Of a DNA stretch of 64,000 nt, positions 8,770 to 25,829 are shown piece after piece. The notes under the pieces were generated by a model. That model saw only the letters and a list, made by a program, of their open reading frames with translations, was not told the DNA's origin and did not search any database. Each line of letters begins with the position of its first letter. Position 1 is the stretch's first letter. Source of the DNA: Halobacteriales archaeon QH_8_64_26 (GTDB taxonomy: Archaea; Halobacteriota; Halobacteria; Halobacteriales; Halococcaceae). Location: NCBI GenBank assembly GCA_003021725.1, contig PXRA01000076.1, positions 52,749-116,748 on the forward strand, written 5' to 3'. Both the position numbers and the translations under genes were made by a program.

Positions 8770-9255
8770 TTATGTGCCGTCAAAGGGATTCTCGAAGCCG
8801 CCGCGGATGAAGTAGCGCACGAAGTTGCCATGCGTTCGGTCGCCGGGATGATCGGCTATCTGCTCGTACTGAACAGTGCCCTCCGAGTCGATCACGTAGG
8901 TTGCGGCGATCCCCGTGAGGCCGTGGCTCGTCTCCTCGGTCCCGCTGTACTGCTCGGCGACCTCGCCGTCGGGATCGGCAAGCAACTGGATGTCGAGATC
9001 GTAGCGATCGCGCATCTCGGTGAGTTTGCCGACGGGATCGGTTACGACCGGCAGAATGTCGACGTTATCGTGGAACCACAGGTCATAGGCGACCTCGCTG
9101 AAGGTCCCGAGCTGCTCGGCACAGAAGCTACACCAGTGGCCACGATTGATCAGCACGACCGTCGGACCCTCTTCTAAGCTCTCCGAGAGGGTCACTTCCT
9201 CATTGGCGGTGCTATCGAGCGTGAAGTCGGGCGCATTGGACTCTTCTAAGCTCAC
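8770..9255 (-). CDS. Redoxin/AhpC-TSA family (peroxiredoxin-like)
   Basis: EGPTVVLINRGHWCSFCAEQLGTFSE CxxC thioredoxin-like motif; likely GTG start 9255. Confidence 0.85.
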   Translation of the reverse strand: MSLEESNAPDFTLDSTANEEVTLSESLEEGPTVVLINRGHWCSFCAEQLGTFSEVAYDLWFHDNVDILPVVTDPVGKLTEMRDRYDLDIQLLADPDGEVAEQYSGTEETSHGLTGIAATYVIDSEGTVQYEQIADHPGDRTHGNFVRYFIRGGFENPFDGT

Positions 9256-9394
9256 GCTCCCGCTCCGAGCGCGACGCAACTTATACTGTCGCGCCTGTGT
9301 CCGCGCCCGACACAGTCGCTACGTTATGACTACCCACGCTCGGCTCGACGGCTCGCGTTCGGCTGTGTCGGCTGTCGGTCCTTCCGGACGCGGT

Positions 9395-10336
9395 TCAGAG
9401 GGCCAGACGGTCAGCGACCGCTTCGAGCGCGTCGAGACCGTGAACTTCGCCCTCGATCGCCGGGATCGTCGTGAGGTCGAAGTCGGGGAACCGCTCTTCG
9501 ACCTCGGCGACGCGCCGTTCGTGGGTATCGCGCTGGCGACGACAGCGGTCGCAGCTCTCGTCGATATCGTCGAGCACGCGATTGACGACGAGGGAGTCGG
9601 CTGGGACCGAAAAGTCCGCGAGCGAGTCGAGCAGGCGGTCGGTCTCTGCGATCGCCATCGCCTTGGGAATCAACACGACCCGGAATTCAGTACAACTCGG
9701 ATCGCGAAGCAGTTCGCGCACCCGCTCCATCCGCGTCTTCACCGCCTCGAACTCGTCCCCGTCCTCCCCACTGCGGCCCATCGCGTAGGCCGCGGGGCCG
9801 AAGACCATGCTGCGTGCGGAGTCGGCCATCCGTCGGACCTGTCCGCGCACCCCCATCGCCGTCTCGATCGTCTCGCTCACCACGCTTGGCAGGTCGAGCA
9901 GCCGGAGGGTATGGCCCGTCGGTGCGGTATCGAAGATCACGTACTCGAAGCGATCACTATCGACGTACTCGACGAAGGCATCCAGCGCGGCGACCTCGTC
10001 GCTGCCGGGCGCGGCCCCCGCAGCGAACAGCGAGTCGACGTCCTCCGGATCGAGGCGGATGCCGACCTCGCGGAGTTCCTCGGACAGCGCGGCGAACAGT
10101 TGGCGGTAGCGCTCGACGCCCCTCTCGGGGTCGACCTCGGTCGCGAAAAGGTTCTCGGTGATCTCGGTGGGTTCGGTGCGGACGTCCTGCTCGAAGGAAT
10201 CGGCAAGCGAGTGGGCCGGATCGGTCGAGACGACGAGGGTCTCCCGGCCCGCACGCGCGAGTTTCAATCCGGTTGCGGCTGTACAGGTGGTCTTGCCGAC
10301 GCCGCCCTTACCGCCGTAGAGCACGTATTCGGTCAC
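9395..10336 (-). CDS. ArsA/GET3 family ATPase
   Basis: VTEYVLYGGKGGVGKTTCTAATGLKLA deviant Walker A; STDPAHSLADSF; GTG start 10336. Confidence 0.9.
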   Translation of the reverse strand: MTEYVLYGGKGGVGKTTCTAATGLKLARAGRETLVVSTDPAHSLADSFEQDVRTEPTEITENLFATEVDPERGVERYRQLFAALSEELREVGIRLDPEDVDSLFAAGAAPGSDEVAALDAFVEYVDSDRFEYVIFDTAPTGHTLRLLDLPSVVSETIETAMGVRGQVRRMADSARSMVFGPAAYAMGRSGEDGDEFEAVKTRMERVRELLRDPSCTEFRVVLIPKAMAIAETDRLLDSLADFSVPADSLVVNRVLDDIDESCDRCRRQRDTHERRVAEVEERFPDFDLTTIPAIEGEVHGLDALEAVADRLAL

Positions 10337-10511
10337 GGCGTCGCTTAGTAGGGGAGCCCCAAACCGGTTGAGGTCGGAGAACGTCGGCGGGGGGCGATCG
10401 GACGGTACCGAGTGTGTGGCGTTCGCGATCGAGTGTGACACGCCCGGGACCGGTGGGGGAAAGACTCCCCGAGGACGGACACCGGTTAAGTTCGCGGAGC
10501 GCATAGAAAGA

Positions 10512-11054
10512 ATGATGAGCGAAACCGAGACGGCGACGGTCGGCGGCGGTTGTTTCTGGTGTGTCGAGGCGGCCTTCGAGGAGATCGAGGGCGTCCAGGA
10601 CGTTACCTCGGGCTATGCCGGTGGCGATACCGAGAACCCGACCTACAGGGAGGTCTGTTCGGGCACGACCGGCCACGCCGAGGTCGTTCAGGTCGAGTAC
10701 GACTCAGACGAACTGGCCTACAAGGACGTCTTAGAGGTCTTCTTTACCGTTCACGACCCGACGACCCGCGACCGGGAGGGCCCGGACGTCGGCTCGCAGT
10801 ACCGGTCAGCGATCTACTACCACGACGAGGCCCAGCGCGAGACGGTAGAACAGTTCATCGAGGAACTCGAAGCAGAAGGTGCCTACGACGATCAGATCGT
10901 CACGGAGGTCGAACGCTTAACGGAGTTCTACGCGGCCGAGGAGAAACATCAGAACTACTTCGCAAAGAACCCGGAGCAGCCGTACTGCACGGTGAACATC
11001 ACGCCGAAAGTAAAGAAGGTCAGGGAGAAGTTCGCCGGCCAGGCAGCCGACTGA
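10512..11054 (+). CDS. msrA: Peptide-methionine (S)-S-oxide reductase
   Basis: TATVGGGCFWCVEAAFEEIEGVQDVTSGYAGG. Confidence 0.95.
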   Translation: MMSETETATVGGGCFWCVEAAFEEIEGVQDVTSGYAGGDTENPTYREVCSGTTGHAEVVQVEYDSDELAYKDVLEVFFTVHDPTTRDREGPDVGSQYRSAIYYHDEAQRETVEQFIEELEAEGAYDDQIVTEVERLTEFYAAEEKHQNYFAKNPEQPYCTVNITPKVKKVREKFAGQAAD

Positions 11055-11168
11055 GCGAGCTTCGAACTCGATTTCGGGAGATCATATCATTGATTTTATG
11101 CTTAGCAGGGGCGCGGCGAATCTTCAGTCGCCATAATTACATGAGAACCGTAGATCACTCGAAGTCGG

Positions 11169-11746
11169 ATGTCCCGAACGATCAAACTCACTGAGGGAGG
11201 AACGCGAAAAACTCGTTGCCGAAATCGATCCCGAGTTCCCTAAATACACCACCCAGGTCATGAATACGGCTAACCAGAATGCACAGGGTGCTCGTCCACT
11301 ATTTGTCGGTCAAATGAGTGAAATTATCGAAGAATACAACAAAAGAATACCCAGACGGTGATTTCGAGGACTGACGAGAGTTCTACTACAGGGAGTATGA
11401 CGGTGAAGAACGGATCGAAACGGCGAGTGAGAAGGTGTTCGAAATGGTCATAAAGATACGAGAAGCAACAGAAGAGATCGATGAAGAAATCGTACATCGG
11501 TGGATAGAAGACCTCGTTCTCTACAAGACCTATACCGGGCTCGGAAGAAACGAAGAAGCCATCTTCGAGAAACTGTCCGAAGAGTACGGAACAGAGTACT
11601 ACCGTAGCACCCCTGAGGAAGAGTTGAGAGGAACCGGTGGGTATCTAAAAGACCAGTCGGTCTCGATCAAGCCAGAGACATACAGACGAAAAGGGCGACT
11701 ACGAGAGGACATTCAAGCACCTATCGTATACTACGAAGAGTATTAA
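11169..11746 (+). pseudogene. MjaI-like (CTAG-type) type II restriction endonuclease, disrupted
   Basis: Reconstructed: MSRTIKLTE/(+1 near 11195)/EEREKLVAEIDPEFPKYTTQVMNTANQNAQGARPLFVGQMSEIIEEYNK/(+1 in A-run 11341-11344)/EYPDGDFED*(TGA 11372-11374)REFYYREYDGEERIETASEKVFEMVIKIREATEE...; upstream of a CTAG-type methyltransferase. Confidence 0.75.
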
Positions 11747-11858: not shown

Positions 11859-12962
11859 ATGGAAACTGACCATCGCATCGTAGTGGACGATTCACGCGAG
11901 ATGAATGACGTTGAGGACGATTCCGTCGAACTCGTCGTCACCTCTCCACCATACCCGATGATCGAAATGTGGGATAGTCTTTTCGAGCAACTCGATCCTG
12001 AGATCCACGCTCAGTTGAATGCAGGCGATGGACAAGCCGCATTCGAATCGATGCACAGAGAACTCGATACGGTCTGGAGCGAGCTGAGTCGCGTGCTCGT
12101 TGATGGCGGTATCGCTTGTATCAATATCGGTGATGCAACCCGGAAGGTCGAAGACAGTTTTCGTGTCTATCAGAATCACTCACGCATCACCAACGCGTTC
12201 GAGCGACTCGGATTCGAACCATTGCCCGAACTACTGTGGCGAAAACCCGTCAACTCCGCAGCGAAATTCATGGGCAGTGGGATGCTCCCGCCGAACGCCT
12301 ACGTTACCCTCGAACACGAATACATACTCGCCTTTCGAAACGGAAAGAGCCGACGGGAATTCGAGCCGGGAGCCGAGCGTAGGTACAACTCTGCATATTT
12401 TTGGGAAGAGCGTAATAAATGGTTCTCGGATGTCTGGGAAGACATCAGGGGTGAACTACAGAACCTCGATCGAGGCGAGCTGCGCGACCGGTCGGCCGCC
12501 TATCCCTTCGAGGTTCCCTACCGACTCGTCTGTATGTACAGCGTCTACGGTGACACCGTTTTGGACCCGTTCTGGGGGACCGGTACGAGTAGTCTCGCGG
12601 CGATGGTCGCCGGCCGGAACTCGATCGGTTATGAAATTGAGGACGAATTCACCCGAGTATTCGACGATCGAGTCCGAAGCGTGGCTGAATTTTCGGAGAA
12701 CGTTATTCAGCAACGATTAGAGGCACACCGTGATTTCGTTGAACAGAAGGTCGATTCGGGACAGAGCTTCAATTACGAGGCTGAGAACTACGATTTCCCA
12801 GTGACGACGAAGCAGGAGAAGCCGCTCAAATTCTATGCTTTGCAGGACATCAGGGAAGCGGAAGACGGATATCGAGCCACTCACGAGGCCGTTGAGGGTG
12901 AGCGATTCACTATCGGTAGAAATTCGCAACCAAGCCGGGCAGCTTCGTTATCCGATTTCTGA
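11859..12962 (+). CDS. zim: Beta-class site-specific DNA methyltransferase, probable CTAG (Zim/M.MjaI-like)
   Basis: N-terminal [11 protein letters not shown] (motif IV) and C-terminal [26 protein letters not shown] (motif I), the permuted beta order. Confidence 0.8.
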
Positions 12963-13017
12963 AAGCTTTTACAGTGATATAGGCACAGCTCGACGCAACC
13001 TATGAGGAGAAACGGGT

Positions 13018-13832
13018 GCCGTCCTTGGTGGGATCGCCTGTATCAACGTCGGCGACGCGACCCGGAAACTCGCGGATAGTTTTCGCGTCTATCAGAACCA
13101 CTCGCGCATCACCGATGCATTCGAGGATCTCGGGTCCGAGCCGTTGCCCGAGTTGCTCTGGCGGAAACCGACGAACTCCGCGGCGGAGTTCATGGGCAGT
13201 GGGATGCTCCCGCCGAACGCCTACGTCACCCTCGAACACGAGTACGTACTCCTCTTCCGGAACGGGAAGCGCTCACGCGAATTCGAGCCCGGCTCCGAGC
13301 GCCGCTACGAGTCCGCGTACTTCTGTGAGGAACGAAACGAGTGGTTCTCCGATCTTTGGGAGGGAGTCAGGGGCGAACTCCGGGCGCTTGCGGGCGACGA
13401 GTCGTGCGACCGGTCGGCCGCCTACCCCTTTGAGATCCCCTACCGGCTTACCTGTATGTACAGCGTCTACGGCGACACGGTGCTCGATCCCTTCTGGAGG
13501 ACCGGGACGGGCAGTCTCGCGACGATGGTCGCCGGCCGGAACTCGACGCCGAGTTCGTCCGGGCCTTCGACGAGCGCGTTCGAAACGTCCCCGAATTCTC
13601 GCGGAACGTTCTCCGGCAGCGACTAGTGGACCACCGGGCGTTCGTACGGGAGGAAGTCGAGTCGGGAGAGGGGTTCGCCTACGACGCGGAGTACTACGAC
13701 GTTCCGGTCACGACCAGACGAGAGCAGTCGCTTCGGTTCTACTCCGTCCACGACGTCGAGGTGATCGAAGGAGGATATCGAGCCGTTCACGAACCAGCCG
13801 TTAGCGAAGAGAGACCAATCGGAGAGAATTAG
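13018..13832 (+). pseudogene. Second CTAG-type methyltransferase, truncated and degraded
   Basis: [32 protein letters not shown]... parallels residues of 11859..12962 from about nt 12100 on; no catalytic SPPY part; FWGTG changed to FWRTG; frame broken near 13545. Confidence 0.85.
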
Positions 13833-13868
13833 GAGCAAGATCAGACCTCATCGTCCGGTTGCTGAACG

Positions 13869-13985
13869 CTACAGGTCTTCGGGAAGCGTCCGGCCGTTGT
13901 CGAGCAGTTCCGTACCGAATGTGAGGAGGCGGATCGATCGGGTCACGACGGCGACGAGTACACTGGTATCTAGGAAGACTCTCAT
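13869..13985 (-). pseudogene. PIN-domain (VapC-like) toxin remnant, internally deleted
   Basis: 38-aa ORF MRVFLDTSVLVAVVTRSIRLLTFGTELLDNGRTLPEDL: PIN N-terminus joined to a short tail. Confidence 0.55.
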
Positions 13986-14206
13986 ATCCGCTCGCGCGTC
14001 TCGCGTACGGCCTCGACTGAGTCGACATCGACATCGATCGATAAGTCGGCGAGGGCATCCCCGAGTGACTGATTGTCATCGTCGTCGGATCGAAGGTACT
14101 CCGCGAAGTCGTCCGCTATGAGGCTCATGCCCCCTCGTTCGTCTTGCTCGGGCAAAAACCCGATCTCTCTCGACTTCGGGTTCGGCTCGGTGAACCGCTC
14201 GCTCAC
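13982..14206 (-). CDS. VapB-like antitoxin candidate or remnant
   Basis: Small acidic ORF whose stop overlaps the start of the PIN remnant; ...MSLIADDFAEYLRSDDDDNQSLGDALADLSIDVDVDSVEAVRETRERI. Confidence 0.4.
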   Translation of the reverse strand: MSERFTEPNPKSREIGFLPEQDERGGMSLIADDFAEYLRSDDDDNQSLGDALADLSIDVDVDSVEAVRETRERI

Positions 14207-14225
14207 CGCGTTCGCTCGCGGATGC

Positions 14226-17200
14226 TCATTCGCCGACCGCCTCCTCCACGATTTCGATTTCCTCGTCGGTCAGTCCGTACAACTCGTAAACAATCTCGTC
14301 GATCAGGTCGTCGGTGCGCTCGATCTTCGCGTCTAACTCCGCGGCGCGCTCGGTGGCATCCCCATAGCGCTCCATGCCGTCGCGAACGTCGTCCAGTTTC
14401 GGCAGCGTGAGCGCTTCGAGTCGGTCCACAAGCGAATTCGTCTTCGTCGCCGTCTCGCGAAAGCCCGCGAAGCCGCCGGCCTCCTCGACGGCGTAGGGGA
14501 CGAACGCAGCGACGAGCGCGGCCTGTGCGTCCTTGAGGTCGGCCACGCGCAGCGCGGGTTCGAGGTCGGTCTCGACCACGACGGAGCCGACCCGGAGGTT
14601 CTCGCGCGTCTCGGTCGTCTCGGTCAGGATGCTGTCGGCGATGCCCGAGATGGGCATCGAAGAGAGGTCGGCGAGGGTTCGACCGTCGCCGTAGTTGGTG
14701 AGGTAGTCGGGAAGGTCTAAATTGATTGCCTCTTTTTGCTTTTCCAGAACATATCTCTGTTCAGCGTTATTGGCAACTTCTTCCGGTACCAGATCTGGAA
14801 TCTTTAATTGTGATATGAGCGCTGGTTTGTAGGCTCGGAATCCTCCCCGCTTTGGAGGGGAGATGCCCCTGTAAATGGCCTGTAAGAGTGTAGAATTGAG
14901 GATACCAAGCAGTCCATAGTAGCTTTCCTCCAAGTCAGATTTCAGCCGAATAGCTTTGACTTTCGTGTTGAAGAAATATTCTTCTCCTACATTGATGGTA
15001 AAATTGTTTGCATCAGAGATGTCTGGTGAGAGTATTTTGGGATTACGATATAATTCCCGTTCCCGCTCTCTCTCCAGTTCGTACCACCTTCTACCCTTGC
15101 TCCCCACAGAAGGACGACTTTCTAATTCGGAACGGCTCTGTTCAAGATATCGCCACGTCTCTTCAAATTCCTGCTTAAGTCTGCCCTCCGGTATCGGTGA
15201 GTCGTTTCTATATGGATATATGCAGTAGAGAGTTGTGGTCGGCGAAGAATATCGCTTGATATCTTTTCCTTTGAGGAACGGGACCAGCAGCTCCTCGTCT
15301 AATCCCTCCGCTGTGTCTTCGTCAATAACGAAAATATCATTGAGGCCAGTCTTGATGCCCTCAGAAATGTGTGTGGAATATTCTTTCAGTGAATGAAACC
15401 TGTCTGGAATTGTAGAGATTACTTGTGCAATACCCGGAGGAATAAGCGGCCAAGCTTCAGCAGACAGTTCATGATACGCGATAGTGTAGGATGGTACGGA
15501 TTCTAAATTTTGTAAAGGCATGTCCTCTGAATCGGGAGTGTAAACTGTGAACTGTTCATTTTGAGAGGAGGCAGAAATTGAAAGGATACACACGTAATTA
15601 GTAGCACCGTCAAACACTTGTATATTTGATAGGTTTATTAATTCTCGGATGGAATAGTTCTGGTTCTGGCTGAGGACCTCTCGAAGACCAGTACCATAAT
15701 CACGGCGAGCAAACATTACTGGCTGTATGAACGATAGAGCACCACGACAAACCGATAGCGACCGTTCGGTAAACAAGCAATATAAGTCCCATTTGCCGGT
15801 AGATGACTCGTACGCTATATCGAAATAATCCTTTAGCGCCGCTGATACGTCCTTCGTGCCAACATACGGCGGATTTCCAATCACCGAGTCGAACCCACTC
15901 CGTTCCGACTTCGATCCATCCCTATCGTAGAACACCTCTGGGAATTCTAATTTCCAGTGAAGGAAGTCCTGTTTAGCGGCGAGTGACTGTGCGGTATCGA
16001 ACCACTCCGCTTCCTCCGCTTCAGCCCAGTCCGAATCGTCCTCCAGCGCCCCCGCCATCCGTTCGTACGCGCCGCCGGGAACGGAAAGCCCGAAGTCCTC
16101 GGCGGTTCGCACGTTCGCCATCGCCACCAGCCGCCGTCTGAGGTCGTCCTGCTCTATCTCGCGGTACTTGCGCTCCATGCGCTTCACGTCGTCTACGTCC
16201 TCGTTGTCGATCGCCAGGAACTCCCGATAGATCTCCATCAGGCGCTCGATGGTGCCCTCCCGGGTCGCGCCGAAGGTCGCGAGCGAAGACTGCTCGCCGT
16301 CGCCATGGGTGCCGTCGGTGCCCTCGTTGCTGCCGCTACCGGAAGCGTCCGATTCGAGTTCCTCGATGTCTTCGATGTCGCTCCCGACCAGCGAGTTGCC
16401 CGTCTTGAAGTGATGATCGAGAAAGGCGAGCGGGCGGTCGGCCGCCAAGGTCTCTAACCACATCGATAGCTTCGCCAGCTCCACGGCCATCCCGTTGAGG
16501 TCGACGCCGTAGATACACTCCTTTGCGATCTCCCGGCGGACGTACTGCTCGTCCCAGTAGTACCCGAGCTCGGCATCGATCTCCCGCACCTCGCCCATGA
16601 CTTCCTCGGCGAGAAAGCCCGTCGCCGTCGTCAGGAAGTGGCCGCTCCCCATCGCCGGGTCGAGGATATCGAGATCGGTCACCCGACGGAGAAAGGGTCC
16701 CAGGTACTCCTGGGTGCCGCGCTCGAAACCCTGGTCCAGGAGGTCCTCGCGGATCTCCTCGACCAGCGGCCCGACCGTCTCCTCGACGATATAGGTCACC
16801 ACGTAATCGGGCGTGTAGTACGCGCCGGTCGCCTTGCGCTCGCCGTCGTCGTTGACGACATACAGTCCGCCCTCGGGCACCGTTTCGATCGCGTCGACGA
16901 CGCTCACCTCGGTCGCCGGCTCCCAGACCTGGCTACCGTCGTCGGCGACCGCGGCATATTCCTCCGGCGCGATACGGAACTGGTGTTCGAGCAGACCCTC
17001 GTAGACGCTGCCGAGATGCCGGGTATCGAGATCGCCGTAGTCGGCGAGGACGTAGCGCCCCTCCTCGTTGCGCACCGTCGAGAGCCGGTAGATCACCTCC
17101 GCTAGGTAGCGGTTGCTGACCTGATGCTCGTCCAGGAAGGCGTGCTGCTCCCGATCGAAGAGCCCACCATTATAAGGCGGGATGCCGAGCGACGCCTCGC

Positions 17201-18284
17201 CCTCGTCGACGAGCCCGAAGAGATTATCCAGCCGGCTCCACATCCTTGTCGAGAACTCGCTGAACTCCTCGTCGAACCCCGTACCGGTCTCGCCGACGGC
17301 CTCGTGAATCTCCGAGCGTAGCGTATCGAGGCTGAACTCCTGGTCGTACTCCGCGGTAGCCTCGGGACCGTCGGGATCGATGAGGCCGCGTGACTCCGCA
17401 TACAGCACGAACATCAGCCGGTAGAGCAGTACGAGGGACTGTTCTTTGAGTTCGTCGAGCGCCGCCTCGTCGGCGGGATCGATCCCCAAGTCGTTCGTTT
17501 CGAGGAAGCCACGGCCAAGCACCCGTAGGGCGGTGAAGACGTTGTCGTGGAGGTCCTCGCCGAGTTCCTGGGAAGCGGTCTCGCTTTCGGCCCACACCGT
17601 ATCGAGGAAGGTCTCGCCCGCGGACTCGCGGAACGCGGCCGGTCGGAAGAAGGCGTAGAAGTACTTGAACGCCTCCAGGTCACCGCGTTCGAGTAGCTCC
17701 GGTAGGTCGACCTCGTAGTAGGTCTGGGTCTCGTAATCCTTCGTGCCGTACAAGCGCCACTTGCGGCCGTTCGTGAGGATTCCCCACTGGACACTCCCAG
17801 GTGTGCGCTCCAGGTAGTGTTTGATCTGGTGGGATGCGTTCCGGTACTGGCGCTGCTCGCTGAATTGTTCGGTGAAGTCGGCATCCCACTGCTTGGCTTC
17901 GACGAGCCCGACGCTGCCCGCAAAGAGGTCCGTCGTGTCGTCGCTCGATAGGTACACCTCGGCGGCGTCCCGTCGAGCGGCGTCGTCCTCGAAGAGCAAG
18001 GCGTCGACGTAGCCACCACCCTCCGGCAGCGTCGTCTCGACCTGCGTGCCGAACCCGAGGATAGTGAGTACCTCATCGATCCAGTTGTCGATAAGCGGGT
18101 CCTCGTTGTACCCCGCTACCAGACTCCCTTCGTCCGCGTATAGCGACCGCAGTTCCCCCATCGCCTCGCGGGCCGCCTCCTCGCAGTCCCACTCCTCTCG
18201 ATCCTCCAGTCGCTCGTCCAGATAGTGACTCGAAAAGAGGTTCGAGTTGAGATACGGGCGTTCGGCAAGCGTCGCCTGACTCAT
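14226..18284 (-). CDS. Large nuclease-methyltransferase fusion (Eco57I/type IIG-like) with TaqI-like specificity domain
   Basis: 1352 aa; N-terminal VDALLF...GLVEAKQW (PD-(D/E)xK-like), DPAMGSGHFL (motif I), VIGNPPYVG (motif IV), LLVPFLKGKDIKRY specificity-domain-like segment. Confidence 0.88.
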   Translation of the reverse strand: MSQATLAERPYLNSNLFSSHYLDERLEDREEWDCEEAAREAMGELRSLYADEGSLVAGYNEDPLIDNWIDEVLTILGFGTQVETTLPEGGGYVDALLFEDDAARRDAAEVYLSSDDTTDLFAGSVGLVEAKQWDADFTEQFSEQRQYRNASHQIKHYLERTPGSVQWGILTNGRKWRLYGTKDYETQTYYEVDLPELLERGDLEAFKYFYAFFRPAAFRESAGETFLDTVWAESETASQELGEDLHDNVFTALRVLGRGFLETNDLGIDPADEAALDELKEQSLVLLYRLMFVLYAESRGLIDPDGPEATAEYDQEFSLDTLRSEIHEAVGETGTGFDEEFSEFSTRMWSRLDNLFGLVDEGEASLGIPPYNGGLFDREQHAFLDEHQVSNRYLAEVIYRLSTVRNEEGRYVLADYGDLDTRHLGSVYEGLLEHQFRIAPEEYAAVADDGSQVWEPATEVSVVDAIETVPEGGLYVVNDDGERKATGAYYTPDYVVTYIVEETVGPLVEEIREDLLDQGFERGTQEYLGPFLRRVTDLDILDPAMGSGHFLTTATGFLAEEVMGEVREIDAELGYYWDEQYVRREIAKECIYGVDLNGMAVELAKLSMWLETLAADRPLAFLDHHFKTGNSLVGSDIEDIEELESDASGSGSNEGTDGTHGDGEQSSLATFGATREGTIERLMEIYREFLAIDNEDVDDVKRMERKYREIEQDDLRRRLVAMANVRTAEDFGLSVPGGAYERMAGALEDDSDWAEAEEAEWFDTAQSLAAKQDFLHWKLEFPEVFYDRDGSKSERSGFDSVIGNPPYVGTKDVSAALKDYFDIAYESSTGKWDLYCLFTERSLSVCRGALSFIQPVMFARRDYGTGLREVLSQNQNYSIRELINLSNIQVFDGATNYVCILSISASSQNEQFTVYTPDSEDMPLQNLESVPSYTIAYHELSAEAWPLIPPGIAQVISTIPDRFHSLKEYSTHISEGIKTGLNDIFVIDEDTAEGLDEELLVPFLKGKDIKRYSSPTTTLYCIYPYRNDSPIPEGRLKQEFEETWRYLEQSRSELESRPSVGSKGRRWYELERERERELYRNPKILSPDISDANNFTINVGEEYFFNTKVKAIRLKSDLEESYYGLLGILNSTLLQAIYRGISPPKRGGFRAYKPALISQLKIPDLVPEEVANNAEQRYVLEKQKEAINLDLPDYLTNYGDGRTLADLSSMPISGIADSILTETTETRENLRVGSVVVETDLEPALRVADLKDAQAALVAAFVPYAVEEAGGFAGFRETATKTNSLVDRLEALTLPKLDDVRDGMERYGDATERAAELDAKIERTDDLIDEIVYELYGLTDEEIEIVEEAVGE

Positions 18285-18289
18285 ATCGA

Positions 18290-18319
18290 TATACTACATC
18301 GCTTCCCGGCAGTAGTATA
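18290..18319. promoter_or_regulatory. Perfect 8-bp inverted repeat over the probable promoter of the nuclease-methyltransferase gene
   Basis: TATACTAC-atcgcttcccggca-GTAGTATA, 5 nt upstream of the gene's start codon. Confidence 0.5.
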
Positions 18320-18569
18320 GAGGTGACGGAGAGGAGGTTCGGCCGAAAGCCCGAACCACGCTGATCCGCCACGCAGGGAGCCCATCCCCTTCCGAAGCGG
18401 TAGGCCGAACTCGGATCGTCAAAGGACACCGACCGCCGACCGACTCACCAACCCGGCGACAGGCATCACAGCCGTTTCGTCCAGCGGTCGATAATCGGTC
18501 GGTTCGACTCGTTGAGAGGACGGTGCTCCGAAATACCTATTAGCACGGCTTAGTAGTTCCTGACAACGT

Positions 18570-20384
18570 ATGGCCGACGACACGCGCGTCGACGTCCGGA
18601 TCGACGTCGAGGACGACCCGGACCTGCTTGACTCGCTGGCGAGTGCGCGCAAGCGCTTCGAATCGGCCGCTTCCCACCTGTTGGGCATCGAAGCCGCCCG
18701 CCTCGAAACTGCCCAGACAGACGAGGGCCTGCGCTCGATCCGTCAGGTCGAAGAGCGCATCACCCTGCTCGAACACCAACTGAACGCCGCCCACCAAGCC
18801 TTATTCGGCATGGACGGCGGGGCCCTGTTCGCCGACGAGGTAGGTCTCGGGAAGACCATCGAGGTCGGCATCGTGCTCAAGGAGATGGCCGTGCGGGGCA
18901 CCCACCAGTCGGTACTGCTGTTGACGCCGGCCCAGCTGGCGACCCAGTGGCGCGAGGAACTCCGCAGTAAGTTCGGCCTGGCGTTCGCCTCGCCGACCGA
19001 TAACGACTTCGAGGGCTTCGCGTCCCACGATCGGATCGTCGCGAGCATCGACACGGCGAAGGCCGAGCGCTTCCGGGATGCCGTCACCGATCGCGACTGG
19101 GACGTCGTGGTACTCGACGAGGCGCATTACGTCAGGAACGACGACACCGAGCGCTGGGCCCTCTTGGACGAGTTGTCCTACGAGTACGCCTTCTTCGCGA
19201 CCGCGACCCCGGTTCAGAACGACATCACCGACCTCTATAATATCGTGAACCTGCTCCGACCGGGGGCACTCGGCACCGAAGCGGAGTTCGCACAGCGCTA
19301 CGTCACCGACGAAGCGACCGGCGAGGTCGCGAACGCCGGGGCCCTCCAGCGGGAGTTGGGCGAGGTGATGATCCGCAACAAGCGCGACGACACGGCCATC
19401 GATTTCACCCACCGCCGGATCAAGACCAATACGCTGACCCCGACCGAGGGAGAACGCGCGCTCTACGAGGCGGTTACCGACTACGTCCGGACGCACTACG
19501 CCGAGGAAGGTGCCCAACACCTCGTCTTGCTCACCCTCCAGAAGGAAGTCGTGAGCAGCCCCTGGGCGGTGCTCGGCACCGTCGAGGGGTGGCTCGCGGG
19601 CGACGGCGAGCGCAGTGGCGGCGAGGCAAGCGTCGAGGACGCCGCGATCGGCCTCGAAAGCGAGACGGGAGGGGAGAGCCAGGCCGAAGCCGAGGCCGGA
19701 GCCGAGATCGACGCCGAGGACAGGGAGGGCGAGCGTTGTTCGCTGACCGCCGCCGAGCGCGAGCAGCTCGAGGAGATCGAGCGGTTGGCGAACGCGATCG
19801 GGGAGACGAGCAAGCAGCGCTACCTCCGGGAGATCGTCACCCAGGCCTCCGAGAGCGTCGAGAAAGGGCGGGTGATGGTCTTCACGCAGTTCCGTGCGAC
19901 CCAGCGGGGGATCGTTCGCGCCACCGAGGAACTCGGGGTTCCGGTGCACGCGGTCAATGGAAGCCACCCGAGCACGAAGAAAGACGAGATCGTGGGCGAG
20001 TTCGAAGAACGGGGCGGCGTGCTCGTGACGACGGACTCGATCAGCGAAGGACGCAATATGCAGTTCTGTAACTTGCTCGTGAACTACGACCTGCCCTGGA
20101 ACCCCATGAGCGTCGAACAGCGCATCGGCCGGATCGACCGGATCGGCCAGGATCGGGAAGTGTTCGTCTTCAACTTAGCACTCGAAGACACCGTCGAGGA
20201 GTACGTCTTGGAGAAGCTGTATGGAAAGATCGATCTGTTCACCCAGACGGTCGGCGATCTCAAGGACGTCCTCTCGACGATGGAACGTCGAGGCGATGGC
20301 CGTGGACTTGGAGGAGAATCGCGAGGCCGCCGAGAAGCTGCAGGACTTCAACGGGTCGGTCTTCGAGAGCTTCGAGTTCGGTAG
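18570..20384 (+). CDS. SNF2/RapA-like DEAD/DEAH helicase, C-terminus apparently frameshifted
   Basis: MDGGALFADEVGLGKTIEVGIVLKE, VLDEAHYVRN, EQRIGRIDRIGQDREV; the frame opening to 20478 encodes a more natural C-terminus (MAVDLEENREAAEKLQDFNGSVFESFEFG). Confidence 0.88.
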   Translation: MADDTRVDVRIDVEDDPDLLDSLASARKRFESAASHLLGIEAARLETAQTDEGLRSIRQVEERITLLEHQLNAAHQALFGMDGGALFADEVGLGKTIEVGIVLKEMAVRGTHQSVLLLTPAQLATQWREELRSKFGLAFASPTDNDFEGFASHDRIVASIDTAKAERFRDAVTDRDWDVVVLDEAHYVRNDDTERWALLDELSYEYAFFATATPVQNDITDLYNIVNLLRPGALGTEAEFAQRYVTDEATGEVANAGALQRELGEVMIRNKRDDTAIDFTHRRIKTNTLTPTEGERALYEAVTDYVRTHYAEEGAQHLVLLTLQKEVVSSPWAVLGTVEGWLAGDGERSGGEASVEDAAIGLESETGGESQAEAEAGAEIDAEDREGERCSLTAAEREQLEEIERLANAIGETSKQRYLREIVTQASESVEKGRVMVFTQFRATQRGIVRATEELGVPVHAVNGSHPSTKKDEIVGEFEERGGVLVTTDSISEGRNMQFCNLLVNYDLPWNPMSVEQRIGRIDRIGQDREVFVFNLALEDTVEEYVLEKLYGKIDLFTQTVGDLKDVLSTMERRGDGRGLGGESRGRREAAGLQRVGLRELRVR

Positions 20385-20474
20385 CGACGGGCCCGAGACC
20401 GACGACCGCCGAGAAGCTGACGGGAGAGCCGACGATCGAATCGAACGCCGAGCCGACGGCGGCGGGGAACTCCG

Positions 20475-23198
20475 ATGAGTTCGGACTCGGACCGGTCGGA
20501 TCGATCGGACCGATCGGAGCGCTCCAACGCCGAGCGCCGAGACGCCGAGCGAGCGGAAAGTAAGGCGGGGATGACCGATCGAACCGCCGTCCGGGACGCC
20601 CTCGAAGCGGCGCTCGAGGACGCAGCCATCGATGACCCGACCGGCGAACCGAACGGGGACGGATCGGCCGAGAAAGAACCGATGGAAGACGAACCAGCCA
20701 CCGACGACTCGGCCGGGAACGAACCAGCTACGGACGACTCGACTGCAGAGGGATCGACCGAGGGCGAACCGGCTCCGTGGAGGGGGGTCGGCGGGTCGGG
20801 CCCTGATCGATCGACGCTCGATCGCGTGGCGATCAGGCGGTTCACTGCGGGCGTTCTCGACGCCTACGGCGGTGAGATAGACCGGGAGACGAACGGGCGC
20901 TGGTCGGTGGTACTGCCCGAGGCGCTGGCCGCGGAACTGGGCTACGAGCACGCGACGTTCGTCTTCGATCCTGCCGAGCGGGCGGTCGGCAGCGAGGAGG
21001 TCGTCGTCGCGCCGGGAACGCGGGCGTTCACTGCGCTGTGTGCACTCGCCGACAGCTCGGCACCAGAAAGCGGGTCGCCCTCGTCGGTGGCCCCGACAGC
21101 ACCCTCCGACTCAGTGCTGACGCGGAAAGAGGGTGCTGCTCGAGTCGACGATCGGGCCGGACGAGACAGGGAGATGGCGGGCGGGGTGGCGAGTGGGGTT
21201 GGGCGACTCCGCTTAGGGAGTGACGTACTCCAGTTACACGTACCGCCGATCCTCGAGGGCGGGGCCTTCGAGACGACGATCGAGGACTTTTCGCCCCGGG
21301 GCGAGGAACGAGCACTGGCCTTTCAGTTCCGCGCGCAGTTCCTCTCGGTTCGTTCCTACCAGCGCGAGGAGACGCATACGATCGCCGTCGACCCGGCGAC
21401 GCGAAGCGTCCTGCCCGTGCTCGCCGCGCGATTGAACGCTCACCTGCCGCGACTGCTCGATCCGAGCGCGGCGGGACGCGGTAGCGAGGATAGGCGGAAG
21501 AACCAGGCGATGGGGAGCCGTGAGGCCGAGGAAGCCTTCGACCGCGAGACCGTCCGCAGTGCCTACTCCGCGGCGAAGCGGGGAGTGACCGAGGCCGTGG
21601 AACCGACCGCCGAGACCCTCCGTGAGAAAGAGGGAGCCGCCATCGAAGAACGGATCGAGGAGATCGGCGAGTACTACGATCGCCGACGAGCGGAACTCGA
21701 CGAGCAGGTAGCGTCGAAGCGCGAAGCGATCGAGGAGTTCTCGGAGAAATACGACCGCGCGGCGGGCGACGAGACGCGTCTCCGTTACCTCAGGGAACAG
21801 CGCGAAGCCGAGGACGACCTCGCGACGCTCACCGGAGACGTCGAGGAGCGAAAGGAACAACTGCGGGACGAAGAACGCGACCGGATCGACGAAGCGATCG
21901 AGCGCCATCGAGTCGACGTCGAGGTCGATCTCGCGAGCGTCACCGCACTGACCTACGAGCGGGGGATCCTTTCGTTGGCGGTGACCGACGGGGAGACGAC
22001 CGCTCGCGTGAGCGTCTCGTACGTTCCGGCAACCGAGGAGTTCTTCGGGCTCGATTGTGCGTCCTGTGGGACCGACCCGCTCGCCGAGGACGCGAGCGCC
22101 GACCAGCCCCAGCCCGCGGCCGTCAACCGTCCAGGGCTCTGTATCGGCGGCCACCTCGTCTGCGGGGACTGTGCGCTGCGCTGTCGAACCTGTAGCGAGA
22201 CCCGCTGTTCGTCCTGTTTCGACGCTGCTGGAGCCGGGACGGAAACGAACCTATCCGAATCGGAGCCGACGTCGGGATCGGCGGGGAAAGGAAGCACCGA
22301 GCCCGGAGAGGAGGCGAGCGCCGGGATCGATGTCGAACCCTTCGAGGCGTGTTGGTTGTGTCGCGACCCCGTCTGTGCGGACTGTCTCGCCTCGTGTGAG
22401 GTCTGTGGCGAGAGAGTCTGTGCGACCCATCGAGCCGAGTGTAGCACCTGTGGCGCGGTGGCCTGTCTCGCCTGTAGCGAGCCCTGCGCGGCGGGCGGGG
22501 AGTTTCACTGTGACACCCATCTCACGGCCCCGGACGCTGTCGAGGGGAGAAACGAGAGCGGCGGCAGCGACGAAGCCCTCTACTGTGAGGCTCATGTCGC
22601 GTCCTGTGGGGAGTGTGGGGATCGGCGGGCGATCGGCACGATGTCGTTTTGCGGGGCGTGTTCCGAAGCGCTCTGTGAGGCCCACCGGCGGGAGTGTTGG
22701 GTCTGTGGCGAAACTCGGTGTGGCGAGCATGCGATCGCCTGCGAGCACTGCGAGGACGAAGGGGATGAAGCAGGGGACACCGAGTCGGTCACGATCGGGG
22801 CCTTCTGTTCGGCACACGCCGAGGCCTGTCGGGGCGGCGGCGAGGTCGTCTGTGGGGATCACTCCCAGCCGGGCGTGATCGTCGACGGCCCGGTCTGTGC
22901 GGATCATCGCTCGGCCTGTGAACTCTGTGCGGTCCGGTACGCCGAGGTGGGCTTCGAGGACGGTCGGTGTCCGGCATGCAGGACCCTGGATAGCGAGACG
23001 CCCGCCGAACCGCCCGTCGCGGCGATCGCCGAGGAGTTTTCGACGACCAGGATCGGTACGACGCCGACCCACGCCGTGATCCAGGGCAAACGGCGGCTCC
23101 GACGCGACGAGATAATCGTCGTCGACAGGCAAAGCGGCGAGGAGGTCCGCCGATCGAAGGCCGACTTCTTCGGCAAACTCTCGGGGGACCTCCCATGA
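20475..23198 (+). CDS. Cys-rich multi-zinc-knuckle protein with central coiled coil
   Basis: 907 aa; coiled-coil segment followed by many CxxC/CxxH pairs (CASCGTD, CWLCRDPVCADCLASCEVCGERVCATH, CGACSEALCEAHRRECWVCGETRCGEH); ATGA overlap with neighbours. Confidence 0.85.
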   Translation: MSSDSDRSDRSDRSERSNAERRDAERAESKAGMTDRTAVRDALEAALEDAAIDDPTGEPNGDGSAEKEPMEDEPATDDSAGNEPATDDSTAEGSTEGEPAPWRGVGGSGPDRSTLDRVAIRRFTAGVLDAYGGEIDRETNGRWSVVLPEALAAELGYEHATFVFDPAERAVGSEEVVVAPGTRAFTALCALADSSAPESGSPSSVAPTAPSDSVLTRKEGAARVDDRAGRDREMAGGVASGVGRLRLGSDVLQLHVPPILEGGAFETTIEDFSPRGEERALAFQFRAQFLSVRSYQREETHTIAVDPATRSVLPVLAARLNAHLPRLLDPSAAGRGSEDRRKNQAMGSREAEEAFDRETVRSAYSAAKRGVTEAVEPTAETLREKEGAAIEERIEEIGEYYDRRRAELDEQVASKREAIEEFSEKYDRAAGDETRLRYLREQREAEDDLATLTGDVEERKEQLRDEERDRIDEAIERHRVDVEVDLASVTALTYERGILSLAVTDGETTARVSVSYVPATEEFFGLDCASCGTDPLAEDASADQPQPAAVNRPGLCIGGHLVCGDCALRCRTCSETRCSSCFDAAGAGTETNLSESEPTSGSAGKGSTEPGEEASAGIDVEPFEACWLCRDPVCADCLASCEVCGERVCATHRAECSTCGAVACLACSEPCAAGGEFHCDTHLTAPDAVEGRNESGGSDEALYCEAHVASCGECGDRRAIGTMSFCGACSEALCEAHRRECWVCGETRCGEHAIACEHCEDEGDEAGDTESVTIGAFCSAHAEACRGGGEVVCGDHSQPGVIVDGPVCADHRSACELCAVRYAEVGFEDGRCPACRTLDSETPAEPPVAAIAEEFSTTRIGTTPTHAVIQGKRRLRRDEIIVVDRQSGEEVRRSKADFFGKLSGDLP

Positions 23199-23971
23199 GA
23201 GCGAACACCGATCCCGATTCCGATCGCGAGGGCGACTCTGCCGATCGAGATCCGTCGCTCGCGACGCTGATCCGCGACGCGGAGGCACGCGGCGAAACCG
23301 AGGCGACGCTGATCGATCGGGTTCGTGCGAGCTACGACCGTAATATCTCCCCTCGGCGCGTCAGAGGGCTCCTCGAAGCCGAACGCGAACGCCTCGATAG
23401 CATCGATACCGGACCGATCATCGAGGACCACGCCCCCCGATACGTCGACGGCGAGGACCTCGACTGCCTCACCGACGCCGAGTTCGCCCACGTGATCGCG
23501 TATCTGGTAGGTGAGCGCGAGGGCCACGCCGAAGTCCTGGAGGGCGACGGAGAGGCCGAGGACCTCGATCCCACCGAGAAGCCAGCAGGGAGACTGGAAA
23601 CGACGGCAGGGGACTCGTCTGACGATGATCGTGCTGGAAACCACCACGACACCGAGGGCGTCGAGGTCCGCTGGCATCGTAGCGACGGCGTGGTGGTGCT
23701 CCGAGCGTTCGCCGCGGAGCCGGGCCGCCTCCTCGATGGCCAACCGGTGACGCGAGCGAACGAGCGCCGGGAGCGCGAGAGGGGGAAGAAAGCCCAAACG
23801 AGCGACTCGCTCGGGATGGCCGTCGTGACGGTAGCGGACGTCACTCCCGGCGCGGCACGGCTCGCCGTCCGACTCGGCGTGAAGATCTACGACCGGGCGG
23901 ACGTTCGCCGGTGGCTCGACGAAGCGAAACTCACCCCCGGGACGTTCGGTTCGCTGATCCAACCCGTGTAG
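23195..23971 (+). CDS. Mrr-like (restriction-endonuclease-fold) protein, catalytic motif apparently degenerate
   Basis: C-terminal GVEVRWHRSDGVVVLRAFAAEPG...SLGMAVVTVADVTPGAARLAVRLGVKIYDRADVRRWLDEAKL resembles the Mrr_cat tail; ATGA overlap with upstream gene. Confidence 0.55.
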   Translation: MRANTDPDSDREGDSADRDPSLATLIRDAEARGETEATLIDRVRASYDRNISPRRVRGLLEAERERLDSIDTGPIIEDHAPRYVDGEDLDCLTDAEFAHVIAYLVGEREGHAEVLEGDGEAEDLDPTEKPAGRLETTAGDSSDDDRAGNHHDTEGVEVRWHRSDGVVVLRAFAAEPGRLLDGQPVTRANERRERERGKKAQTSDSLGMAVVTVADVTPGAARLAVRLGVKIYDRADVRRWLDEAKLTPGTFGSLIQPV

Positions 23972-24057
23972 TCGCCGGTCGTCCGGTCGGCTTCCTTTAG
24001 GGATCGACCGGGACACACACGGTCAGATTGAAATAGGAGGCTATCGGTAGCCCACTC

Positions 24058-24204
24058 ATGGCAGCCGGAGCCGTGCTGGCGATCACAGCGCTCATCATCG
24101 TCGTACTGGTTCTCATGCTCTTCGCGGCGATGCGATTGGTTCCCTCCACGCTCGGCGGGGACTCGGAGGAAGAGGCCGAGGGCAACAACCCGAACGAGAC
24201 CTGA
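24058..24204 (+). CDS. Small single-TM protein (48 aa)
   Basis: MAAGAVLAITALIIVVLVLMLFAAMRLVPSTLGGDSEEEAEGNNPNET; below the ORF-track length cutoff. Confidence 0.6.
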   Translation: MAAGAVLAITALIIVVLVLMLFAAMRLVPSTLGGDSEEEAEGNNPNET

Positions 24205-24370
24205 GCGGGCAGTCACGCTTGATTCCGAGCGATGACCGTCGATCGTCGGCCGGCGTTCGACCGATCGGCCCACACGTCGAGACGGTTTCCCTGGACCCGA
24301 TCGGTCGGGTCGGATTGTCGTCCGCTACCGCCCCAGTGGCTTTGAGCCCTCGACGCGATAGCACCCGGCG

Positions 24371-24988
24371 ATGGAACAGGCTTTGCGAGCCGGTATGGCG
24401 ATCTACAACGCTGGGGAGTTCCACGCCGCCCACGACGCCTGGGAGGCACCCTGGCTCGATCGTGATCGTGGAACGGACGACGAACGGCTGTTACACGGGC
24501 TCATCCAGTTCACCGCCGCGATCCACCACGCTACCGAGGGGAACCCGGAGGGGGCGAGGGGCCTGGCCGCGAGCGCCCGCGAGTACCTCGACGGACTGGA
24601 GGGTTACCGCGGGGTGAACGTCGGGGACGCGAGAGGATACCTCGAAAGCCTTCTAGCGGACCCGACCGGTATCGGGCCTGCCGACGCGCCGGAACTGACC
24701 ATCGAGGGAGTTCCGCCCTCGCTCGATACGGCCGCCTTCGAGGTCGGCGCGATCGCCGCGCACGTGTTAGCCGAGGAGTACGGCTACGGGGAGAAAGTCA
24801 TTGAAACTGCCATCGAGTACGCCCGTCGGGACCTGGCGGACGGGGAGGAAACGAGTCCGTTCGTGACGCTCGTGCTCGACTTCGCAAGGGAAGAGGATCA
24901 TCGGGCGGTCGTCGCGCAGCGACTCGGAGAACACGTCGAGCGCCGCGAGGCCCGCGAGGCCGATCTGGAAGGGTTGTTCGAACCCTAA
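24371..24988 (+). CDS. DUF309-like protein
   Basis: MEQALRAGMAIYNAGEFHAAHDAWEAPW...LLHGLIQFTAAIHHA. Confidence 0.75.
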   Translation: MEQALRAGMAIYNAGEFHAAHDAWEAPWLDRDRGTDDERLLHGLIQFTAAIHHATEGNPEGARGLAASAREYLDGLEGYRGVNVGDARGYLESLLADPTGIGPADAPELTIEGVPPSLDTAAFEVGAIAAHVLAEEYGYGEKVIETAIEYARRDLADGEETSPFVTLVLDFAREEDHRAVVAQRLGEHVERREAREADLEGLFEP

Positions 24989-25076
24989 CTGGTGTCGGCG
25001 GGACGAGGAGAAGACAACGGCGAGGAACGCCGGCAGGCCGACGAGCGAACGACAGAAGCGGTACGGTCTCGGGGCC

Positions 25077-25829
25077 TCAGTCCTCGGCGTCGTACTCCGC
25101 GGAGTTGTCCTGAGGGTCGTAGCCCAGCACCTCGCGGGCGCGATCGATCGAGTAGTACTTCCGGTCGTTATCCGAGATCCCATAGACGATCTCGTAGCCG
25201 TAGTCGGCTTGCAGGGACCGGTCGAAGAGGTGTGCACAGTCCCGATAGGAGAGCCACATCGCCTGTCCGCGCTCGTAGTCCCTCGGTGGACGTTCTTTGG
25301 TCAGGTTGCCGATCCGCAGACAGACCGCGGGCAGGCCGTAGGTGTCGTAGTAATATCGTGCGAGGAGTTCGCCGGTCGCCTTCGATACTCCATAGAAGTT
25401 ACCCGGTCGGGGGAGTTCGGTGCCGTCGAGTCGGTAGGCGTCGTGGGAGCGATAGATCGTCGGAACGCGATCGTCGGTCTCGTAGCCCCCGACCGCGTGG
25501 TTCGAGGAAGCGAGGACGATTTTCCCTACTCCCTCTTCGGCCGCGGCGTCGAGAACGGTCTCGGTGCCGTCGATGTTGTTCGCAAGCACGCTGTCCCAGG
25601 AGGCGTCGGGCCGGGGATCGCCCGCGAGGTGGACCACCGCACTCGCGCCCGCGACGGCGTCCCGGACGGCCTCGGCGTCGGTGACGTCGGCGAGGACGTA
25701 CTCGTGGGAGTAGTCCTTTTCCGGCGGGTCGCGATCGAGCAGTCGCCACCGGTAGCTATCGCCGAGGTGATCGAGGATCGCCTCGGCGACGCGTCCTGCC
25801 GCCCCCGTGAGTAACACCGGGCCGTCCAT
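25077..25829 (-). CDS. azf: NAD-dependent SDR, probable archaeal glucose-6-phosphate dehydrogenase (Azf-like)
   Basis: MDGPVLLTGAAGRVAEAILDHLGDSYRWRLLDRDPP..., ASSNHAVGGYE, YGVSKATGE. Confidence 0.65.
   Translation of the reverse strand: MDGPVLLTGAAGRVAEAILDHLGDSYRWRLLDRDPPEKDYSHEYVLADVTDAEAVRDAVAGASAVVHLAGDPRPDASWDSVLANNIDGTETVLDAAAEEGVGKIVLASSNHAVGGYETDDRVPTIYRSHDAYRLDGTELPRPGNFYGVSKATGELLARYYYDTYGLPAVCLRIGNLTKERPPRDYERGQAMWLSYRDCAHLFDRSLQADYGYEIVYGISDNDRKYYSIDRAREVLGYDPQDNSAEYDAED

Follow-up and report, generated by a model that had tools for sequence, protein, structure and literature searches.

SNF2 helicases of BR systems have a common set of domains behind the motor, and RapA is among the helicases of that C-terminal architecture (Rakesh and Krishnan, PMC12839542). 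In BrxHII and RapA, the C-terminal domain is a sheet with inserted coiled-coil helices, which follows an alpha+beta domain (PMC12839542). Two further systems are relevant here. ZorD1 of Zorya combines an SNF2 helicase and an Mrr-like nuclease in one protein, and in DISARM, an adjacent gene supplies a helicase half that binds zinc, DrmB, which is a precedent at the structural level.

The locus described here lies in a stretch of 64,000 nucleotides of haloarchaeal DNA, which we call the window. On its forward strand, an SNF2 helicase gene is followed by a gene for a 907-aa protein with an array of Cys/His knuckles, hereafter the partner, and by a gene for an Mrr-fold relative. We read the partner as the split C-terminal half of a RapA/BrxHII/DrmD-type SNF2 ATPase, extended by a zinc array and belonging to a restriction-like antiviral module that would translocate on double-stranded DNA, and we give this reading a probability of about 0.6.

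As in BrxHII and the other BR helicases (PMC12839542), an alpha+beta domain would come after the motor, and then a sheet into which coiled-coil helices are inserted; short haloarchaeal relatives of the partner are found together with a DUF499 ATPase and a DUF1156 methyltransferase, as in BR systems. In contrast to these systems, the haloarchaeal C-terminal part is a separate gene, here with the putative zinc array, and no DUF499 or DUF1156 genes are present among the window proteins scanned. The window helicase also matches the DrmD model of DISARM (1e-79), and a divergent methylase matches DrmMI, but the DrmD score of 269 bits is under the 610-bit cutoff, and drmA, drmB and drmC are absent among the genes scanned in 11859-25684, beyond which the wider flanks are housekeeping by Pfam. 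An identity of the zinc half with DrmB (DUF1998) was considered and dropped, as there was no Pfam match to DUF1998. With ZorD1, the locus shares the combination of an SNF2 motor and an Mrr-fold protein, and in one array-bearing subtype (C, see below) the Mrr gene product matches the ZorD1 C-terminus at 1e-20. Here, however, there are three separate genes, with the coiled-coil zinc-array protein in the middle.

Layout of the 907-aa protein

The partner gene (20475..23198, + strand) is a coding frame, because its differences from the ortholog of the congener L016 concentrate at third codon positions (84/89/225); the same bias led us to drop a non-coding artefact. Its dN/dS against this ortholog is about 0.29 (0.112/0.381). 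Two AF2 models of the partner reached moderate confidence, with pLDDT of 65.5 and 74.1 and pTM of 0.39 and 0.37.

The protein begins with a low-complexity N-terminus (residues 1-107; 20475..20795, + strand), which is probably disordered (AF2 pLDDT about 30-50) and has no counterpart in the alignment in relatives beyond the genus. An alpha+beta domain follows at residues 112-193 (20808..21053, + strand), predicted as HEEHEEH; its homologue in BrxHII/RapA-type helicases is the first domain behind the motor. Next, AF2 predicts an antiparallel sheet with an inserted coiled-coil hairpin (21270..22025, + strand), in the order of strands (residues 266-306), helices (357-428 and 432-477) and strands (480-517); the AF2 models of the partner thus place the long hairpin between two sets of strands, behind the alpha+beta domain. 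A first putative zinc ribbon at residues 528-581 (22056..22217, + strand) corresponds by alignment to the sole such site of short relatives of ~390 aa. The Cys/His array, with a period of 15 residues, occupies residues 626-835 (22350..22979, + strand), and a small four-stranded C-terminal domain at residues 857-895 (23043..23159, + strand), predicted by AF2, is present by alignment in most array-bearing forms. Thus, the length, coiled coil, Cys/His array and low-complexity N-terminus named in a preliminary description of this DNA are all borne out, by the reading frame, the AF2 models and sequence shuffles.

Similarity to the C-termini of fused helicases

Searches with the single protein against Pfam, NCBIfam and PADLOC returned nothing beyond chance, and a PDB sequence search gave coiled-coil and chance zinc matches only. 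The earlier judgement that the protein has no obvious family therefore holds as long as one searches with a single sequence or in curated libraries; comparison of profiles places its N-terminal half with the post-motor region of RapA/BrxHII/DrmD-type helicases. Single fused helicases align weakly by hhalign, the best being a Halococcus protein at 35%, and RapA on its own reaches a probability of only 2.3%. Since the comparison with RapA alone failed, 31 short partners were compared with the C-termini of nine fused helicases from plasmids and Escherichia coli, alongside shuffled and reversed controls, and the RapA-type C-terminal architecture emerged from profile alignment within this set.

In the alpha+beta domain, this comparison reached a probability of 91.7% (score 56.8). 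Another set, picked for its coiled coil, gave 75.1% over 224 columns, the cores of the array proteins alone reached 94.1% against the fused C-termini, and all partners combined reached 94.9% over 209 collinear columns, where the reversed template gave 4.2%. Thirty-four controls with reversed, column-shuffled or block-shuffled templates stayed at or below 1.6% (score 24.6), and the 35 controls in total (32 shuffled, 3 reversed) at or below 4.2. The similarity falls outside the coiled coil, has the order and position that a C-terminal half should have, and is seen again in two independent sub-alignments.

The AF2 topology of the partner is similar to that described for the C-terminal domain of RapA and BrxHII (PMC12839542), and the AF2 secondary structure agrees with a sheet carrying two long inserted helices. 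A Foldseek comparison of the two models with the PDB found no match at E <= 0.001, RapA included, and the Pfam model RapA_C found none over its cutoff in 60 genomes of the phylum; RapA, furthermore, is without a zinc array. The RapA/BrxHII-like fold of the N-terminal half is thus a prediction. Because this half is homologous to the post-motor region, the best reading of the 907-aa gene is that it encodes a C-terminal half split off from the upstream helicase, with motor and C-terminal half on separate, overlapping genes and not on the same polypeptide. Of the two roles that had been proposed, a nucleic-acid sensor is a possible one and a scaffold for the helicase a plausible one, but the protein is better read as the C-terminal half that the motor lacks.

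The adjacent SNF2 helicase

The helicase of the window is a 604-aa ORF (18570..20384, + strand) of the RapA/DrmD/BrxHII-like kind, which matches Pfam SNF2-rel_dom (1e-27) and Helicase_C (7e-20) and has the motor motifs GLGKT, DEAH and QRIGRIDRIGQ. At 28 of 28 informative loci, an SNF2 helicase gene of the same strand immediately precedes the partner gene, and the 21 intact array loci show this arrangement as well. Where loci are intact and have enough flanking sequence, these helicases are 50-91% identical to that of the window. The loci that depart from this are decayed or cut: L028 has a helicase fragment and L073 a helicase broken into pieces, L076 and L077 are remnants, and L053 lies at a contig start. 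In the reverse direction, seven of 197 genomes of the phylum have a strong match to the helicase, and all seven also carry the partner. In the helicase tree, every array-associated helicase falls into one group with support of 100/100. The link to the helicase drawn in the preliminary description is therefore strongly supported, both by adjacency at the intact informative loci and by the post-motor homology, and the homologs found by profile search do not occur mainly away from helicase or restriction genes.

The Cys/His array and the family

The partner contains 42 Cys, and its repeat, C-x2-C-x4-C-x2-[H/C]-x3, spans 15 residues and lies far above chance. The array region has 15 CxxC pairs (mean of 5.1 and maximum of 12 in shuffles of the same region) and six full C-x2-C-x4-C-x2-[CHD] units (0.13 in shuffles, maximum 2), and the spacing of CxxC pairs peaks at 15 residues. 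All 42 Cys are invariant across the four congeneric orthologs, and 30 Cys are invariant among 18 array proteins. The curated zinc-finger models of Pfam and NCBIfam do not match the array protein; judging by the Cys/His pattern, the array would bind zinc.

Of 394 genomes of the haloarchaeal class that were searched with a profile, 81, about a fifth, have the family. Most members are of about 390 aa, with one putative C-terminal zinc ribbon. The array-bearing members fall into three subtypes, each a clade in the helicase tree: W, the window's genus, with 888-946 aa and full-length orthologs in all three other genomes examined from the genus; C, with 675-676 aa; and B, with 1088-1185 aa and giant arrays of 34-45 CxxC and 110-139 Cys. 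The largest expansion thus reaches 139 Cys and 45 CxxC in one protein. That the array is restricted to the genus was considered and dropped, as it is also present in other haloarchaeal lineages. No relative turned up in viral contigs or phage records. In Haloferax lucentense (NZ_CP104744; L105, locus 9001-11427), the array gene is unannotated and three antisense "hypothetical proteins" are called over it; array proteins may therefore be under-counted by annotation.

The Mrr-fold third gene

The third gene of the cassette (23195..23971, + strand) overlaps the partner gene by 4 bp and encodes a 258-aa Mrr-fold relative, identified by BLAST to the Mrr proteins of L062/L060 (E 1e-15). Their family matches Pfam Mrr_cat (1e-20 in L058). 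The call of an Mrr-like gene downstream is upheld by homology (28.6% identity to an Mrr protein), but the window protein matches no Pfam model and has lost the catalytic QxK motif. Of the D...QxK active site, QxK is lost in the window's genus and in subtype B, although both retain the relationship in fold, and is kept in subtype C, whose third gene encodes 216-220 aa with an intact D...QAK and matches Mrr_cat at 1e-20 and 3.5e-19 in the two copies scanned.

Genomic neighbourhoods

Within the genus, the locus occupies one conserved chromosomal place, flanked by housekeeping genes and with no obvious defence island. A gene for a DrmMI/type IIG-like N6 methyltransferase (14226..18284, - strand) is divergent from the helicase; it is present in three of the four congeners but missing from this position in L017, so that the gene is optional and its presence polymorphic within the genus. 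Further along the window, a 230-aa Arg-rich ORF (24992-25684, + strand) runs antisense to an epimerase gene (25077-25829, - strand) and is probably not a gene.

Most of the short-type loci examined adjoin DUF499 ATPase and DUF1156 methyltransferase genes, a BREX-related gene set, and relatives in other genera are also found beside McrBC-like, PbeA-like and restriction genes. The layout of subtype B is largely constant: a divergent PbeA-like SF2 helicase of ~965 aa and a protein of ~285 aa come before the SNF2 helicase, the array protein, a ~320-aa Mrr relative and a 298-aa protein. This last protein ends most subtype B loci at exactly this length (L064-L075, e.g., L068:12354-13250); two copies scanned had no confident Pfam match, and the L064 copy had no PADLOC match.

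These neighbourhoods bear on an alternative that we consider unlikely, namely that the operon encodes an ATPase domesticated for housekeeping, a RapA-like remodeller of RNA polymerase or chromatin that would use its zinc half during transcription to bind RNA polymerase or nucleic acid. RapA, an RNA-polymerase-binding ATPase, has the matching C-terminal architecture, all four genus members keep the operon, with the same housekeeping flanks in each aligned congener, and both the genus and the giant-array subtype have lost the Mrr QxK motif. A housekeeping role is at odds, however, with the patchy occurrence of the family outside the window's genus (81/394 overall), where several members are plasmid-borne, and with the DUF499/DUF1156, McrBC-like, PbeA-like and restriction genes beside these relatives.

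State of the operon in the genus

The preliminary description had placed the partner gene between an SNF2 helicase and an Mrr-like gene; the neighbours are right, but the helicase ORF that ends at 20384 is frameshifted. In comparison with the congener L016, the window helicase has a 77-bp frameshifting deletion at ~20287, near its 3' end, and the intact frame of L016 continues past 20384 to a TGA at 20476-20478, which overlaps the ATG of the partner gene. In the congener L018, part of the helicase N-terminus is lost, and the helicase and Mrr-like ORFs are both broken. The Mrr-like gene, with dN/dS of 0.46 (against L016) and 0.60 (against L017), is more relaxed than helicase and partner.

Together with the inactive Mrr protein, these breaks could mean that the window copy is a decaying remnant, which we hold to be quite unlikely: the array gene is intact, with its 42 Cys invariant in four species, the helicase is intact in L016 and L017, and the breaks in the window and in L018 may be assembly errors as well as decay, as the assemblies are fragmented. 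Moreover, helicase (dN/dS 0.14 against L016) and partner (0.29) are under purifying selection within the genus, which argues that the pair functions there.

It is very unlikely that the N-terminal half is unrelated to helicase C-termini and forms an independent coiled-coil zinc scaffold co-transcribed with the helicase, since the profile similarity, far above all 35 controls, collinear, outside the coiled coil and seen in two sub-alignments, outweighs the lack of a significant Foldseek match and the empty single-sequence searches.

Possible mode of action

As the split C-terminal half of the SNF2 motor, the partner would share an operon with the motor half (18570..) and dock on this half via the alpha+beta domain and the coiled-coil-inserted sheet, like the fused C-terminal region of RapA and BrxHII. 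The resulting complex would most likely translocate on double-stranded DNA within a restriction-like antiviral module. The Cys/His array would most likely touch nucleic acid or recruit partners, the Mrr-fold product of the third gene included. In subtype C, the Mrr protein with its active site would then cut; in the window's genus, where QxK is lost, the module would therefore act by translocation or blocking, or through another nuclease. A more specific version of the defence module, which appears rather unlikely to us, has a split BREX-like SNF2 motor whose array, in 15-residue units of about 30 copies, would read nucleic acid directly and diversify in length and sequence under virus pressure.

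A hypothetical protein that occurs in roughly every fifth haloarchaeal genome sampled would thus be explained as one half of an antiviral motor of a known type, and this class of SNF2 helicases would exist in split form, as DISARM DrmA/DrmB does for another class. In addition, the comparison exposes an unusual expansion of a Cys/His repeat that is tied to SNF2 motors. Outside the archaea, on plasmid5 of the cyanobacterium Calothrix brevissima (L103:5821-8590), a related helicase is immediately followed by a gene of its own for a 346-aa protein; this protein has weak similarity to the partner (5.2% by hhalign) and may be a split form from bacteria that lacks zinc sites.
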